Of a stretch of DNA of 24,903 nucleotides, positions 8,632 to 17,618 are shown piece by piece; positions within the stretch are counted from its first letter, which is position 1, and the number at the start of each line of letters is the position of its first letter. This DNA comes from a virus. The position numbers and the translations under genes are program-made. The stretch covers positions 1 to 24,903 of the IMG/VR virus record IMGVR_UViG_3300009130_000127. One strand, written 5' to 3'. The notes under the pieces were generated by a model. It had not been told where the DNA came from. It saw only the letters and a list, made by a program, of their open reading frames with translations, and searched no databases.

Positions 8632-10767
8632 TTAGATTGTAGATGTGTCTTGTGTTACTTGTACGTTGTTTTGAGCGTCGTTTATTTCTGTTACTGATAC
8701 CGTTAAACCTAGATTAGCTATTGCACCTTCTAACGCTGCCTGTTGTGCTAATGATTGGTCTGCTTCGCTTGTGTTAGCTGTTGCCGTTCCGTTATAACCT
8801 GCTGTACTAGGTGTAACAGGGCTAGGAGTACTAGACGAGCCAGCACTACTAATAGATGCTATTTGTGCTGCACCCGACGCAACTGTTGCTGCTGCTGCTG
8901 CTACTGCTGCTGGCCAAGGTGTAACCGTAGCTAAAGCGTTAGTAACCCCCACCGCTGTATTTATTATAGCTTGAGTTATACCTATGGCTTTTGCTAGTTT
9001 TTCGTTTTTACTTGCAAAAACTTTAGCTAATTCAAAACCAGAATTCAATACACTTGCAGCGTGTTGAGCGTTTGATATTCTTAAACTTCTTTGATAATCA
9101 TAACTAGCTCTAACGGTTGCGTTAATAGCTCTTGTTGAATCTTCTACGGCTTTTTGTTTTTCAAGTTCAGAGTTTTTAAACTCAATCATTACTTCTCTAA
9201 GTCTGTTTTTTTGGACTTCTGACAAGTAATCAATATCCGTTATCGCCTTTCCTAATTCTGCAGGATCTTTAATGCCTAGTAATCTGTTTAACTCTTCATC
9301 AGATAAACCTATTTCATTAAATTGAGTTCTTTGAGCTTGTAAAAACCGATCATAACTAGCTTGATAATCTGCTAAAGCTTGTTTTCTTTGCTCTATTGTT
9401 AATTCTTCGTTATTCGCTCTTTGTTCTAAAACATCTCTTTCTCTTTCACCAACATCTATAATAAAGTCTAACTCTTGTTCCCAAATATCTTGTTTTCTTT
9501 GGCGTGTTATTTTTAGGTTGTTTTCTTCATCTAAATTAGCTTGGTTTCTTATTTCTGTTCTTTCTTTTTGTTTTTCTGTTAGCTCTCTTTGAATCTCTAA
9601 AGTGTCTTGGCTGTTTCTTTTAGCTATATCAAGTTGTTTTTGAATTAGTGTTATTTCTTGATTAACTAAAGATTCTTGTTGTTGAAACTTTCTTTTTTGT
9701 ACCTCTATTAGCTCCTCTTGTGCTTGTGCTTGTTCTTGGAATGATAATGTAGAATCCTCAGCTTTACTAGCTAATACAGCTTCTTGGCCCTCTAGTTTTT
9801 TAATCTCTTTTTGAGTAGCTAACATTGATCGGTTTAGCTTCCAAGTAGCATCTTCTAATTCAATTGTAGCTTTAACATTTTTTTGAACTTTTTCTGTAAC
9901 ATCGGAAACTACATCAGCCGTAGCCTTAAACAAATCAACATAAGGATTAGCGTTATTAAATGATTCTCCTGCTTTTCTAGCATTTTCAATAGCAGATTCA
10001 AAATCACCTTTAAAAACATCTCTAATAACTTTACCTAAGTAACCAAATGTATCTATTAAAGCATCTATTTTTTCTAATACATAGTTTTGAACTAGATTAG
10101 CAAAAGATTTAATACTTTCTTGTGGATTAGTAAAAGCATCATAAATTCCAACTGCAAACTCACCTACATAACCCACTAAGGTATCAAAAACAACATTTAA
10201 AACAGCCATAGCCGTCTTTAAAACTTTAGCGCCTTTTTCGGTTCTCCCAAAAGCAGCAATTAAAGCTGTAAACCCAGCAACTATTAACCCTATTGGATTT
10301 GCTAACATGGCAATGTTTAACCCTTGAAAAGAAGGGATAACGCCATCTAAAGCGCTCTTGTAATCCCCGACTGAGCGCCTGAAATCTCCTCCTGATTGTT
10401 CAGCTTTCTTTATAGAGTCATTTTGTTTTTTTATAGCTTCGTTTAACCTTTGAAACTTTCTTACACCTTCTTCTGTGGATGTATTAACCGCGTTTCTTTG
10501 TGTTGTTAACTTTGCTAAGTTCGCTCTAAGCTCGTTTAGGCTTCCTTTTTCAGCACCTATTAACCTTACATTTTGTCTTCTAGCTGTGTTTAGTTTTTGT
10601 ATCTCAGCTGCGTTTTTTTGGTATTGGGTGCTGTTTTTTTGCCCTTGTGCTGCTAACTCTCTATTCTCTTGTTGCAGTTTTTCAATGGCTTCATTTTGTT
10701 CGTTAATGTCTTTTATTGCTTGGGCGTTGTCTACCTCAATTTCAATTAATACTTTTTCGTCAGCCAT
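8632..10767 (-). CDS. tail tape measure protein
   Basis: A 711-residue protein with tape measure architecture: a long N-terminal coiled coil (about 10-125, heptads rich in Q, N, E and K), a central hydrophobic helical region (about 148-205, with ANPIGLIVAGFTALIAAFG and VLNVVFDTLVGYVGEF), another long coiled coil (about 300-470), and an alanine/serine-rich hydrophobic C-terminus (about 590-650, AVAAAAATVASGAAQ). It sets tail length and forms the DNA-ejection channel. By the known proportionality of about 0.15 nm per residue, the tail should be roughly 105-110 nm, a siphovirus. It lies between the tail-tip genes and the tube gene, two bases from the former. Confidence 0.9.
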   Translation of the reverse strand: MADEKVLIEIEVDNAQAIKDINEQNEAIEKLQQENRELAAQGQKNSTQYQKNAAEIQKLNTARRQNVRLIGAEKGSLNELRANLAKLTTQRNAVNTSTEEGVRKFQRLNEAIKKQNDSIKKAEQSGGDFRRSVGDYKSALDGVIPSFQGLNIAMLANPIGLIVAGFTALIAAFGRTEKGAKVLKTAMAVLNVVFDTLVGYVGEFAVGIYDAFTNPQESIKSFANLVQNYVLEKIDALIDTFGYLGKVIRDVFKGDFESAIENARKAGESFNNANPYVDLFKATADVVSDVTEKVQKNVKATIELEDATWKLNRSMLATQKEIKKLEGQEAVLASKAEDSTLSFQEQAQAQEELIEVQKRKFQQQESLVNQEITLIQKQLDIAKRNSQDTLEIQRELTEKQKERTEIRNQANLDEENNLKITRQRKQDIWEQELDFIIDVGERERDVLEQRANNEELTIEQRKQALADYQASYDRFLQAQRTQFNEIGLSDEELNRLLGIKDPAELGKAITDIDYLSEVQKNRLREVMIEFKNSELEKQKAVEDSTRAINATVRASYDYQRSLRISNAQHAASVLNSGFELAKVFASKNEKLAKAIGITQAIINTAVGVTNALATVTPWPAAVAAAAATVASGAAQIASISSAGSSSTPSPVTPSTAGYNGTATANTSEADQSLAQQAALEGAIANLGLTVSVTEINDAQNNVQVTQDTSTI

Positions 10768-12926: not shown

Positions 12927-15307
12927 TATTGTTCTTGTACTAATGTATTAGGTAAAAACACCTCAAAACTAACTTCTCTCATGTACTCGCTTTCGTCGGT
13001 TAATAAGAAAGTGCTAGGTTTAGTTGTTACAGTTGTCCAAACTCCATCTAATTGAATTTGTATTTTAATTGATCGCCTAATTTGGTTTAAAATTATCTGC
13101 TCATTTTCTGTTAGCAATCCACTTCTAAGGGTTAAAGACTTTCTAACGTTTAAATTAATAGTTTCATACTCAGTATCTCCGTTAATAAAATCATTGTCCC
13201 AATCTTGCGTAACATCTCTTCTTATTTCATTACGATTAGAAACAGTTTCGTTAAATGTTCTGTATCTGTTAAAGTTCCATTGTTCCCAACCACCTAAATC
13301 ATTTTTCCATCTTAACGGTGTACTGTATCTATTGCATTTATCACCTATTTTAGTTGGTTTAACTTGTGTTAAGTATTCAATAGGCCCCTTAAACGTTGTA
13401 TTATCAACACCAAAAGAAAAACCTCCCCCCGTTAAAACATCATTAGTGATAACTAAAATAACTTCTATTTGATGGCTTGTTTGAGTAGCTTCAAAATCAA
13501 ACTGAAAACTTCCTTCTGCAATAGGGAATTGAACAAATTCGAATTTATTTGATATTATGCTTGTACCCTTTAAACGATAACAAAAATACCCGTTACCTAT
13601 TAAGCTCGGTGCAAAGTTATTCATTAATGAAGAATCAGTGTTAAAGGCGTACCCCTCACCTACAATAGTTTGTATAGGTGTATCAAATTGATATAATACA
13701 TATTCTCCCGCTGTTAATGATGCGTAATTAGCATTATAAATACCAAAACCACCAGTAGGACCCCCTGTACTGTGGCTTATTGGGTTTGCTATCGCGTTAA
13801 TGTTAGAAATATTCCAAGTTGCTGTATTGGAATTTTCATACGTTCCGTTATCACCATCTAAAAGAAGATTAGAAGGTATTGAAACTAATTGAGCCGTTCC
13901 CTTTTTCCAACTATCAGAAGTTATAGCGCTTTCAACAGTATAAACACCATCTGAACTATTGCTAATTTGTGTCCTTACCTCTTCAACTACAACCCCTTGT
14001 CCATCAAAAACTTTTTCATCTAAGAACACACTGTCGCCTCCCTCACTGCTGTTAAATGTAGCGCTGGGTACAATTGAATTAATGTAATAAGGATATGTAA
14101 GGGTATCAAAGTGAGTTAATAAACCGCCTTGTAATCCACTATCTGCAATGTAATCTCCAAAATTACCACCTAAAGAATCTTGAAACTGTTTAGCTCCAAA
14201 GATTGAAAAACTAGAATACTCACAAGGATTAGGCACGTTTGTAGATATTGCAAATCTATTTAACCTAAAGTCCATTACTTGACTCTGATTAACTGGATTA
14301 GTAGCAATTCCAACAGCGTCAACATCAAAAGAAGGTGTGATAGTTATAATGTTATCTTTTACACCTAATGAACCTATATTAACAGTAGAAAAAGGTTGCC
14401 AAGTTTGATCGTCTTTTTTTCTTAAATAAACAGTATACCTAATTCCATCGGGTAAATTTCCACTAACTAAATTAATATTCACATTTAACTCATAAGGAAT
14501 AGAAGGCACTAAGTCTTTTTCTTGATAAAGTATTTTACTTGTGCTATCAACAGATACATAGCCTAAACCCCCCACCCATAAAGTGCTTGAGTTAGTTGAT
14601 TGACTCCAATCAGTTAATCCATTATTAAAATCCTCATTATCAAACCCCGTAAAAGGAACACAGTTATCTAAAGAATCTTTTGTGTAAGTTGGAATTGTTG
14701 AACCGTCCCAAATTTCCGCATATTGAATAGCAAATGAAGTCCAAGCAAAATGACTATTATCATCATTGTAATCAAAAGCTGCTGTCATATCAGGTTTAAT
14801 GAAGTTCCTAACGTTAGCTATTCCCTCATTATTAGAATCAAATTCTATTTCAATAGTACCTATCTCTGTTAGTGGCTTACTAGAATCTGTATTATATGGA
14901 TGGTAACTAGGCGCACCAGCATAAACCTTTGCCAAACCCTTATAACCTTTGTAATATCTTTGGAAAGTTCCTAAAGGTGAAATTTCTGATTCGTTAGTAA
15001 ACAAATCAATAACAACAAACCCCGTAATAATGTCTATTACTTTGTATATTCCATCTATTTTACCAGTGCCATCAACAGTAACAAAATCACCTATAATAAC
15101 ATTATCAGTAGTTAAAAAACCTAGTTTAGTACCTCTTAAACTAGAATCATACGTAAATGATTGGATATTTGAAGCTGTATCAAAAGTGTTAACAGGGAAT
15201 TTTGTGCTGTTAAATTTATAGTTTAAAGGTGTTCTAGATGCGTTCCATCTACTTACGTACCCACTTGATAGGGTTTTTTCTGGTCTACTGGTTACTGATA
15301 TTGCCAT
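12926..15307 (-). CDS. large tail-tip protein with probable carbohydrate-binding modules
   Basis: A 793-residue beta-rich protein. The first 180 residues resemble tail-tip proteins of Bacteroidetes phages (Ser/Thr-rich start, RWNASRTPLNYKFNSTKFP). Residues about 225-360 (FDNEDFNNGLTDWSQSTNSS to VMDFRLNRFAIS) have the hallmarks of a jelly-roll carbohydrate-binding module: NGLTDWS at the opening strand and IPYELNVNINL. A second similar stretch spans about 490-640. The C-terminus (about 690-793) is a compact domain with TLRSGLLTENEQIILNQIRR. It probably forms the tail tip and touches the host surface; ligand unknown. It overlaps the neck gene by 23 bases. Confidence 0.55.
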   Translation of the reverse strand: MAISVTSRPEKTLSSGYVSRWNASRTPLNYKFNSTKFPVNTFDTASNIQSFTYDSSLRGTKLGFLTTDNVIIGDFVTVDGTGKIDGIYKVIDIITGFVVIDLFTNESEISPLGTFQRYYKGYKGLAKVYAGAPSYHPYNTDSSKPLTEIGTIEIEFDSNNEGIANVRNFIKPDMTAAFDYNDDNSHFAWTSFAIQYAEIWDGSTIPTYTKDSLDNCVPFTGFDNEDFNNGLTDWSQSTNSSTLWVGGLGYVSVDSTSKILYQEKDLVPSIPYELNVNINLVSGNLPDGIRYTVYLRKKDDQTWQPFSTVNIGSLGVKDNIITITPSFDVDAVGIATNPVNQSQVMDFRLNRFAISTNVPNPCEYSSFSIFGAKQFQDSLGGNFGDYIADSGLQGGLLTHFDTLTYPYYINSIVPSATFNSSEGGDSVFLDEKVFDGQGVVVEEVRTQISNSSDGVYTVESAITSDSWKKGTAQLVSIPSNLLLDGDNGTYENSNTATWNISNINAIANPISHSTGGPTGGFGIYNANYASLTAGEYVLYQFDTPIQTIVGEGYAFNTDSSLMNNFAPSLIGNGYFCYRLKGTSIISNKFEFVQFPIAEGSFQFDFEATQTSHQIEVILVITNDVLTGGGFSFGVDNTTFKGPIEYLTQVKPTKIGDKCNRYSTPLRWKNDLGGWEQWNFNRYRTFNETVSNRNEIRRDVTQDWDNDFINGDTEYETINLNVRKSLTLRSGLLTENEQIILNQIRRSIKIQIQLDGVWTTVTTKPSTFLLTDESEYMREVSFEVFLPNTLVQEQ

Positions 15308-15743
15308 TCTTAGAGGTTCTTAATTCCCCTAAGATAATACTTTTTGAACTTTGTTTAATATCGTTAAGTATGTTGTTTTCTATTGACTCATCAACACTCG
15401 TTATTAAATCGGGTGTACCCTCATAACCATTCTGATATAAACCCCTTATAATACTGTTTGCGGTTCTGTTTATACCTCTAGCGTTAGCCCATCTTGTTAT
15501 TTGGTCAAATATTGGAGGATTAGAAGCAACATCAGCAGGAGTCATGCCCGTTTCTAAAAACCTGATATGATCCAAAGCATAAAGGGTTAGAGTAGTTGTA
15601 GTTTTATTGGTTTCTTTAACTTCGTATCTAATAGATTGGCTAGTGTCACCAGTTGCCACCCTATCATTATCCCTTAAAGATTGCCTATAAAGTTGTACAG
15701 CTTCTTTACCGTTATCTTCTAATATCTTTTTTAAGTCGCTCAA
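15285..15743 (-). CDS. HK97-gp10-like neck/tail-completion protein
   Basis: A 152-residue protein with the gp10-like signature: ATGDTSQSIRYEV (about 30-42), a strand run of T's, YALDHIRFLETGMTP (about 55-69), then ITRWANARGI and a C-terminal GTPDLITSVDESIENNI helix. In related phages this protein closes the head-tail junction. Translation must start at TTG (15743): an in-frame TGA lies two codons upstream and there is no internal Met near the N-terminus. The TTG overlaps the upstream stop as TTGA, the TTG counterpart of the ATGA junctions in this genome. Confidence 0.72.
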   Translation of the reverse strand: MSDLKKILEDNGKEAVQLYRQSLRDNDRVATGDTSQSIRYEVKETNKTTTTLTLYALDHIRFLETGMTPADVASNPPIFDQITRWANARGINRTANSIIRGLYQNGYEGTPDLITSVDESIENNILNDIKQSSKSIILGELRTSKNGNISNQ

Positions 15744-16219
15744 ATGCTTTCAGTTTGATTATTACTAAAGTCATCACAATAATCTTGTACATCACTCATA
15801 GTTACAGACATTGTAAAACCTCGGCCTATACCTAAATATTGAGGGTCTTTAAACGCTTCTTCTATGTTGTAAGTCATTGTGTTTATGTATTCGTTTTTTT
15901 GTACAAAGTTACAGAACCTACCTATTAACTCATCTACTTGGTTTTGATAATACTCTACTTCTTCATTGTAGTAATTATCTTCTGGGTTCATGTTAGTAGT
16001 TTCAACACAAGCCACTAGAGTCAAATCAAATCTAACTTCATTAGATTGACTAAAAGAAACTGTAATATCTTGTGTTAGTCCTAGTAAGGCTATAAATGTT
16101 TTGTGATTCTCATCAATAGACCACTTTTGAAGCCTCTCTGATGTCGTTTTAACATAAGGACAGCCCAACTGTCTACAAGCTATCCTAAAAAGGTTTGATA
16201 TGTAATATGATGCTGTCAT
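15740..16219 (-). CDS. tail completion/terminator-like protein
   Basis: A 159-residue protein sitting between chaperone and neck genes, the usual neighbourhood of the tail terminator. It opens with a helix (SYYISNLFRIACRQLGCP), then DITVSFSQSNEVRFDLTLVACVE (about 51-73), a central acidic segment rich in N, Y and E (about 78-95), and a final strand GIGRGFTMSVTMSDVQDYC. The helix-strand-strand layout is compatible with the tail terminator fold, but no motif is diagnostic. Its ATG overlaps the frameshifted chaperone stop as ATGA, which is the main evidence for where that gene ends. Confidence 0.55.
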   Translation of the reverse strand: MTASYYISNLFRIACRQLGCPYVKTTSERLQKWSIDENHKTFIALLGLTQDITVSFSQSNEVRFDLTLVACVETTNMNPEDNYYNEEVEYYQNQVDELIGRFCNFVQKNEYINTMTYNIEEAFKDPQYLGIGRGFTMSVTMSDVQDYCDDFSNNQTESI

Positions 16220-17018
16220 CTTTTCCTACTCATGTTTATTATTTGTTGATACTTTTTATCTGCGGCACTGTCTCTACTTTGTAGTTGCGCCCACCTGTAC
16301 ACCTCACCCACAGTCTTTTTAAAAATCTCAGAAGCGTTGATAAGATCACCTTTGGATAACGAATAAATGTTATACAGATAACCAAAATCGCTACAGATCT
16401 CACCATAACCTGCTTGAGTTTGTTCGTCAGTGAGTCCGTTACTGACTGTTTCTTTTTCGTTCCACTGTTCAACTCGGTTAATTTCTGCAAAAAAAAACCT
16501 CCTAAAGAATAGACTACATTACATGGCATTTCATCAATACGCTCTGATATTCTTTCTATTTCTTCTATGCTGTTGTATTCTTTACAAGCAAAAACCGCTA
16601 TCATTTTAGACATCACAGCTATTTGCTCTATGTCGTCTTTTTCTTCTTCGTCTACATTAACAACTTGATTAACAAACTCTATAATATCTCTGTATTTACC
16701 CAAAGGAACGTTTAAAAAGTCCTTTTCAATAGGGTAAAACTCTCCATCCATTTCAATATGTGTAGGTACTTCACAAGTAGGTTCTAATCTAGTAAACTTT
16801 AATACTTTGTCTATATTAAAGAATAACTCGGCCTTATGTGGTTTTGTCCACATCTTTATAGATATACCCGTTAAGGCGCTATAAATAGCCTCAATAGAGC
16901 CGCTTTCAACCCCTCTAAGGTATTTAATGTAATCTTTAAAAGAAACATCACCCCAATCTTTAGGAATAGAGCCTTTTTCTACTGTTTTCTCGTATTTTAC
17001 TTTTATAGGTATTCTCAT
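16216..17018 (-). CDS. tail assembly chaperone, made through a -1 frameshift
   Basis: Frame 0 from the ATG at 17018 encodes 174 convincing residues (DWGDVSFKDYIKYL, YSALTGIS, then helices to YSLGG) and then meets nine T's at 16497-16489. In frame 0 the next 83 codons give a basic, hydrophobic stretch that looks like a shadow reading. One frame back (-1) the sequence continues as a normal acidic helical protein: AEINRVEQWNEKE, YGEICSDFGYLYNIYSLSKG, then EIFKKTVGEVYRWAQLQSRD, ending MSRKR at 16216. That frame has 90 residues and its TGA overlaps the next ATG as ATGA. The fused product is 267 residues. Tail assembly chaperones are classically made as a short and a -1-shifted long form that escort the tape measure. 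A tenth T lost in sequencing, or transcriptional slippage, are alternatives. Frame 0 alone would end at 16239. Confidence 0.75.
16489..16497 (-). other. nine-T slippery site in the tail chaperone gene
   Basis: On the minus strand the codons GGA GGT TTT TTT TTG run over nine consecutive T's. A one-base slip back changes the continuation from LQKL to FAEI and opens the frame that reaches 16216. A run of this length can act by ribosomal -1 shifting or by RNA polymerase slippage. Confidence 0.7.
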
Positions 17019-17530
17019 TAAAATATAGAATTATAATCTTTAGATTGACCGTTAAACTCTGGATAAACGTCTCTATTATCACAGCAAAACACTTGAATAC
17101 TCCAAAAACTGTCTATTGCTTCATTGTATTTGTTGGTTAACCCTGCCATTTTAGAACTAATTACCTCCCCTTGTTCATAAAGGTTTTGGCTATTACCGTT
17201 TATATTGTTTTTAAAGTTCTGCTCTTTAGTAAACTCAGCATAAACAAGACCCTTTAAGACCTCTTTAATACCTTCTGAATGGTATATTTTGTCTTTAAAG
17301 TTGAATGATAAAGGGTTGAAAATAGCTGTAAATCTTGCGTTTTGTGGCTCTTTGTATTGATCCAAGTCAAGTAATAACAAATCAGCTAATTCTATGCCTA
17401 ATAAGTCGTATAAAAGCTTCTTTTCGTTTAGTTTGATGTACTGTTTTAAGCTTTGTCTAGTCCAGTCATCATCGTTTATCATGTATCGCCCAAAGTTAAA
17501 ATCTTCAGAAGAACTTATTATTAATCCCAT
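17018..17530 (-). CDS. head-tail connector (adaptor) protein, probable
   Basis: A 170-residue helical protein between the capsid side and the tail genes, with the profile of the small connector that joins portal and tail: a short extended start (GLIISSSEDFNFGRYMIN), helices QSLKQYIKLNEKKLLYDLLG and ELADLLLLDLDQ, then KEVLKGLVYAEFTKEQN (about 90-106) and a final YNEAIDSFWSIQVFC helix. I chose the ATG at 17530; the frame stays open to a TTG at 17599, but that extension lies across the terminator hairpin at 17561-17593. It overlaps the chaperone gene by one base (TAATG). Role is inferred from position and helical pattern. Confidence 0.62.
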   Translation of the reverse strand: MGLIISSSEDFNFGRYMINDDDWTRQSLKQYIKLNEKKLLYDLLGIELADLLLLDLDQYKEPQNARFTAIFNPLSFNFKDKIYHSEGIKEVLKGLVYAEFTKEQNFKNNINGNSQNLYEQGEVISSKMAGLTNKYNEAIDSFWSIQVFCCDNRDVYPEFNGQSKDYNSIF

Positions 17531-17560
17531 TTCATTAATCTTTAATAATTGCAATATACG

Positions 17561-17593
17561 AAAAATAGGCTCACCTAATATAGATGAACCTAT
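17561..17593 (-). terminator. intrinsic terminator closing the accessory island
   Basis: On the minus strand ATAGGTTCA (17593-17585) pairs with TGAGCCTAT (17573-17565), nine pairs including one G-T, loop of 11 bases, followed by TTTTT. It follows the second exported-protein gene and precedes the connector ATG by 31 bases, so it both ends the island and rules out the TTG start at 17599. Confidence 0.8.
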
Positions 17594-17618
17594 CAGCAAT
17601 TAACACAAACAAATGAAA

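Follow-up and report, generated by a model that had tools for sequence, protein, structure and literature searches.

A Bacteroidota phage gene family recoded into the -1 frame at an invariant run of nine T's

We analysed a stretch of 24,903 bases, the IMG/VR virus record IMGVR_UViG_3300009130_000127 (called the window here), and found that one of its genes belongs to an unannotated phage family of Bacteroidota. Sequence conservation across this family identifies the fusion of an N-terminal and a C-terminal part as a real, conserved gene that is recoded at a run of nine T's (T9). The chances are about even that we are dealing with a Bacteroidota-wide phage tail gene in which slippage of the host RNA polymerase on the invariant T9, rather than ribosomal frameshifting, sets the ratio of two protein forms and in which both C-termini are coded by overlapping frames over ~80 codons.

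Layout and relatives of the slip gene

The gene, called the slip gene below, lies on the minus strand, and its start codon shares bases with the stop codon of the DUF6712-like gene upstream. Frame 0 consists of 259 codons (Table 1). Around the run the sequence reads GGA GGT TTT TTT TTG CAG. Past T9 some 90 open codons follow in the -1 frame, whose TGA overlaps the next ATG (16219-16217) as ATGA; the +1 frame is closed within 3 codons. At the sequence level, a shift into the -1 frame gives two products with a common N-terminus; the peptides LQKLTELNSGTK and AEINRVEQWNEK represent the frame-0 tail and the -1 frame of the window, respectively. The preliminary description had reported the T9 at 16497-16489, the lengths of both frames and the ATGA junction, and its coordinates were right throughout.

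Table 1. Features of the slip gene and its neighbours in the window
Feature	Position	Strand	Remarks
N-terminal domain common to both products	16498..17018	-	173 codons, ATG at 17018
Slippage site	16489..16497	-	exactly nine T's, GGT TTT TTT TTG, phase 2 (run begins at third codon position)
-1 frame C-terminal domain	16216..16488	-	AEINRVEQWNEK...NMSRKR; TGA 16218-16216 overlaps next ATG
Frame-0 C-terminal tail	16239..16488	-	LQKLTELNSGTKKK...; 83 codons, stop ends at 16239, overlaps -1 frame
First ~18 post-slip codons	16435..16488	-	both frames conserved as protein in relatives; assigned by position in the window
Next gene, 159 aa	15740..16219	-	start codon overlaps -1 stop as ATGA
gp10/Neck1-like tail completion protein	15285..15743	-	member of the slip gene's module
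Upstream neighbour	17018..17599	-	weak DUF6712 similarity, head-tail adaptor-like
Tape measure protein	8632..10767	-	four genes between it and the slip gene

In the order of transcription, the window encodes portal, protease, HK97-type capsid protein, several other genes, the DUF6712-like protein and the slip gene, followed by the 159-residue protein, the Neck1/gp10-like protein, two large structural proteins, the tape measure protein and a 190-residue protein, which may be the tail tube protein. The slip gene belongs to the head-tail/tail module and does not adjoin the tape measure gene. This order (24901-7989, minus strand) is unusual for a siphovirus, with a possible tail tube gene after the tape measure gene and the slip gene far upstream. 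Relatives likewise have a gene in the position of the 159-residue gene, after the slip gene. Contig L060 has four genes between slip gene and tape measure gene, as in the window, and in many relatives the slip gene adjoins the large terminase gene, downstream of it.

Used as direct queries, the window's own N domain, -1 domain, p793, p718, MTP-like and DUF6712 sequences found no close relatives among viral contigs and phage records. Relatives were reached through a capsid alignment, then through a p718 alignment, a terminase (TerL) alignment and family HMMs. The capsid alignment led to contigs L058-L062, which have a gene at the same place with T9 and a -1 ORF that extends to the following ATG. 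Alignment of p718 proteins led to Flavobacteriaceae prophages, one of which (L107) has T9 in the codon phase of the window and five of which (L102-L106) have the N and C parts in a single frame. A tblastn search with L107 gave the cultured Nonlabens phages P12024L and P12024S, which also contain T9 and in which the gene is annotated as two separate hypothetical genes. The terminase alignment gave 80 viral contigs, mostly with T9 just downstream of the terminase gene; the rest ended before the site, had single-frame forms or had a different next gene. When Bacteroidota genomes were searched with profiles that take no account of the run, additional two-frame loci with GC contents of 0.26-0.57 were recovered, among them the order of a gut-type genome (G752), and T9 was present in every complete one. 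A weak match in G161 was dropped as an RNase III locus.

The fused protein of the window matched the wide family HMM with 45.8 bits (residues 17-244; E 6e-12 for 20,000 sequences). The match is colinear across T9 into the -1 domain, where the window follows the conserved family domain ...WGWY..IY.LAKGD.T.FDEVT.... The membership of the window rests on this wider HMM; in a profile comparison with the core clade alone the match was weak (7% probability), and a MAFFT alignment of the window with L060 alone was unusable. L060 and L062 are members by gene order and T9 and not by significant sequence similarity (E 0.2). More than 100 nt around and after T9 are identical between L060 (4504-5375) and L062 (3508-4379), although the gene differs by 5%.

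We counted 83 two-frame members, which correspond to 33 lineages at <70% identity and 14 at <40%. Their GC contents range from 0.26 to 0.57, and they include the cultured Nonlabens phages and Bacteroidales prophages. L134 was left out of the count because it has T9 but a -1 frame closed by one substitution; this change (6674 onward) introduces a stop after 12 codons of the -1 frame, which is open in the close relatives L131 and L148. L207 and L214 are split at contig ends and were therefore uninformative.

Recoding at T9 into the -1 frame, as proposed in the preliminary description, is supported: the -1 domain is the conserved one and is in one frame with the N domain in the single-ORF relatives. 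The two halves of the family correspond to PHROGs phrog_32199 and phrog_38404 (P12024 gp40 and gp41), whose function is annotated as unknown; these records neither join the halves nor read them as a recoded gene.

Run length, codon phase and the mechanism of frame change

T9 was exact and followed by a -1 ORF in all 83 two-frame members (the window and 82 others), and neither a T8 nor a T10 allele was found among these members, which come from independent samples. Two further explanations were considered. The first is a sequencing or assembly error in an ordinary 267-residue ORF with ten T's, the plain-gene alternative named beforehand. Single-frame relatives are known, but the same T9 occurs in IMG/VR contigs of many samples, in two complete cultured-phage genomes and in bacterial genomes. 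These T9-bearing relatives refute the error, to which we assign virtually no probability. The second is phase variation, in which T9 would be a hypermutable on/off DNA switch for the fused protein. Phase variation through homopolymers is known from other systems (PMC3711429), but the missing T8 and T10 alleles make this explanation very improbable.

The nine T's are not tied to one codon phase. With phases 0, 1 and 2 denoting a run that begins at the first, second and third codon position, respectively, phases 1, 2 and 0 were found in 20, 11 and 2 of the 33 lineages at 70% identity and in 5, 7 and 2 of the 14 lineages at 40% identity. In phase 1 the Phe-Phe pair is preceded by V or L and followed by W, Y, S or C; in phase 2 it is preceded by S, G, A or T and followed by L; in phase 0 the run starts as FFF. 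Compared across the members, the flanking residues covary such that nine T's are kept. L117 and L122 are related and have their runs in different phases, and both runs consist of nine T's. On the relatives' plus strands (589 kb), T9 occurs 74 times (~67 in the slip gene), vs. 23 times for T8 and twice for T10. T8 is recurrent in a downstream gene that lacks an alternative -1 ORF (L121:3696, L134:7856, L144:4440, L150:7956, L187:3363, L188:5713), so that T8 is tolerated where recoding is not used. In another gene of L142 (1695) and L154 (197), T10 is followed by AATGA, possibly marking a second slip site.

Adding a single U to the transcript shifts reading exactly into the -1 frame. Because nine T's are kept in all phases, a process that sees the run itself explains the pattern better, and we prefer slippage of RNA polymerase on T9, with addition of one U, to slippage of the ribosome; the slip gene is probably recoded in this way. 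Nine bases is about the length of the RNA-DNA hybrid of the polymerase. The slip gene would then yield two proteins with a common 173-residue N-terminal domain. Transcripts with U9 would be read in frame 0 to give the 259-residue product. On a minority of transcripts the host RNA polymerase would slip on T9 and add one U, and these U10 transcripts, continuing in the -1 frame, would give a 267-residue product with the conserved helical C-terminal domain.

Published work on runs is in line with the preferred polymerase slippage. Selection against A/T runs begins at nine nucleotides in many bacteria (PMC1088944), runs of Tn with n>8 are cited for polymerase slippage (PMC3711429), insertions rise exponentially with the length of A/T runs (PMC5574713), and the E. 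coli polymerase prefers T runs for insertions (PMC6260861). Against it, the amino acid needs of two overlapping frames fix some of the nine bases. In addition, U_UUU_UUU is present in the window and, judged by phase and run length, in all members, so a ribosomal slip is possible everywhere.

Programmed -1 ribosomal frameshifting on this heptamer, as in lambda G/GT and with an efficiency tuned by run length, is possible but about half as probable. It is the classical route for tail chaperones of long-tailed phages (PMC5009743), the heptamer is in the right phase in all members, and two chaperone cassettes showed 6-7% frameshifting when measured in E. coli (PMC3711429). Reporters in E. coli also show more frameshifting with longer homopolymers (PMC3711429), so that a run of nine could be optimal for the ribosome. 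However, U_UUU_UUU requires only seven and eight T's in phases 2 and 1, and nine in phase 0, and T8 or T10 never occurs in any phase among the 83 members. Pairs of the type S/G/A-FF-W with T8, which are acceptable in both frames by the residues of other members, were never found. No consensus RNA pairs were predicted from 60 nt upstream to ~110 nt downstream of the site in 20 relatives; the downstream structure that would fit ribosomal frameshifting was thus not found, nor was the nascent RNA stem-loop that may stimulate transcriptional slippage, an optional feature that does not define it. The absence of consensus structure also speaks against RNA structure as the cause of the post-slip conservation described below. 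The preliminary description had spoken of a -1 ribosomal frameshift. Its shift to the -1 frame stands; as to the agent, polymerase slippage fits the invariant nine in all phases better than the ribosome does.

Constraint on the frame-0 tail

Frame 0 continues past T9 for longer than expected. When the -1 protein of the window was resampled with synonymous codons, the mean opening of frame 0 was 8-18 codons, while its actual opening is 82 codons (for the window alone, p 0.002-0.004). The preliminary description had called the lack of an early stop unusual. The same resampling for 52 non-redundant members (<95% identical) gave an expected median of ~16 vs. an observed median of 82 open codons. 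Among 5,940 control windows from other genes, read in the same shifted frame, none was open for 80 codons and 0.13% reached 60. Further loci from bacterial genomes had a similar openness of 39-85 codons, which was significant in only part of the loci. The length of the tail ranges from 25 to 89 codons across members, with short tails of 25 codons in P12024 and 40 codons in L107.

Conservation of the tail as protein is concentrated near the slip point. Over the first ~18 codons the frame-0 protein identity was 0.52 vs. 0.30 expected, and beyond them it was 0.36 vs. 0.32, a ratio of 1.13, where control regions reach 1.04-1.09 from shared ancestry alone. Some distal frame-0 columns are strongly above the null. 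Third-position substitutions in the -1 frame fall to 14.6% after the slip from 25% upstream. As an internal control, no release of constraint was seen after the frame-0 stop (272 codon comparisons, few sites), so that the lower rate at third positions does not on its own establish dual coding. From the identities and the resampling we conclude that both frames appear to code for protein over the first ~18 post-slip codons, and that the longer tail is under selection for openness across the family. The preliminary description had regarded the frame-0 tail as implausible. As to composition this is correct; the tail is not a mere leftover, because the relatives keep the frame open and its first ~18 codons are conserved.

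Two readings of the longer tail fit either slippage mechanism. The tail may equally well be no functional domain, stops being avoided so that most ribosomes reach the next start, with translational coupling and no polarity. The frame-0 end 8-167 nt before the -1 stop and the next start (in members with both ends) is in accord with such coupling, as are the near-control conservation beyond ~18 codons and a confidence of the structural model that falls to 39-71 in the tail. The distal columns that far exceed the null speak against coupling, as does the persistence of the genes in P12024 and L107 despite their short tails. With a somewhat lower probability, the tail is a second functional C-terminus, so that two alternative domains would be coded in fully overlapping frames. 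The excess of open codons over resampling and controls, the lowered third-position change in the -1 frame and the conserved first 18 codons support a second C-terminus, but constraint is not released after the frame-0 stop (at few sites), conservation past codon 18 is weak and the length of the tail varies among members (25-89 codons).

Known recoded genes and the possible role in tail assembly

In the predicted model of the frame-0 product of L149, a relative from the dense clade, helices predominate and short strands are also present; one helix (residues 153-184) spans the slip point, and the confidence drops in the tail. The -1 domain modelled alone is helical (pLDDT 70). Foldseek found nothing significant in the PDB for either model. 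VIA-align of the frame-0 model gave only middling helical matches, and in a viral library the P12024S protein plus unnamed or uncharacterized proteins were matched. There was no match in Pfam and no named match in PHROGs.

Like lambda gpG/gpGT (PMC5009743), the slip gene lies in the tail module and has an N-terminal product and a -1-frame fusion (the rarer product in the lambda type) that carries a separate C-terminal domain, and the in-frame heptamer X_XXY_YYZ is present as U_UUU_UUU. Unlike gpG/gpGT, it has no detectable sequence or fold relation to that pair, does not lie directly upstream of the tape measure gene or between it and the major tail protein gene, has an invariant nine-base T run and not a short heptamer, and keeps frame 0 open for 25-89 codons further. 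Its likely role is in tail assembly, which by analogy with lambda would involve a plentiful short form and a scarce long form bridging tape measure and tail tube. The preliminary description had called the gene a tail assembly chaperone. The position in the tail module agrees with this, but the gene lies four genes before the tape measure gene, and neither a sequence nor a fold match to any known tail chaperone was found. The chaperone role suggested here is an analogy drawn from architecture and module, not from membership in a chaperone family.

The chaperone of Flavobacterium phage 1/32 (AHK11383/AHK11384) is likewise a joined -1 product of a Bacteroidota phage with a homopolymer at the junction, but its run is A10, it lies directly upstream of the tape measure gene, and it gave no significant match to the slip-gene family. 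This annotated tail assembly chaperone (L003, 9734) is another case of a long homopolymer in a Bacteroidota phage chaperone gene.

Among genes with programmed transcriptional slippage, Thermus dnaX (A9) and IS element transposases share with the slip gene an A/T run of about nine, and these as well as Shigella spa13 share one gene with products in two frames (PMC1088944, PMC5009743). An A/T run of about nine or more in the coding region, a frame for a shifted product and a run length independent of phase, features of transcriptional slippage, are all present in the slip gene. It differs from the genes named in being a phage tail-module gene, in having a T run and in being known here from sequence alone. 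In the searchable literature, which leaves most subscription journals outside, we found neither an account of the slip-gene family nor a case of polymerase slippage recoding a phage tail gene.

These results correct the annotation of two halves that are currently filed as separate genes of unknown function. The members form a natural series for tests of nine-base runs in the polymerase and ribosome of Bacteroidota, with three phases, GC contents of 26-57% and the cultured P12024L/S. Frameshifting in tail genes is a textbook case of ribosomal recoding; in this family it is the length of the run, rather than its codon phase, that is fixed, which suggests that the ratio of the two forms may be set at the level of transcription.
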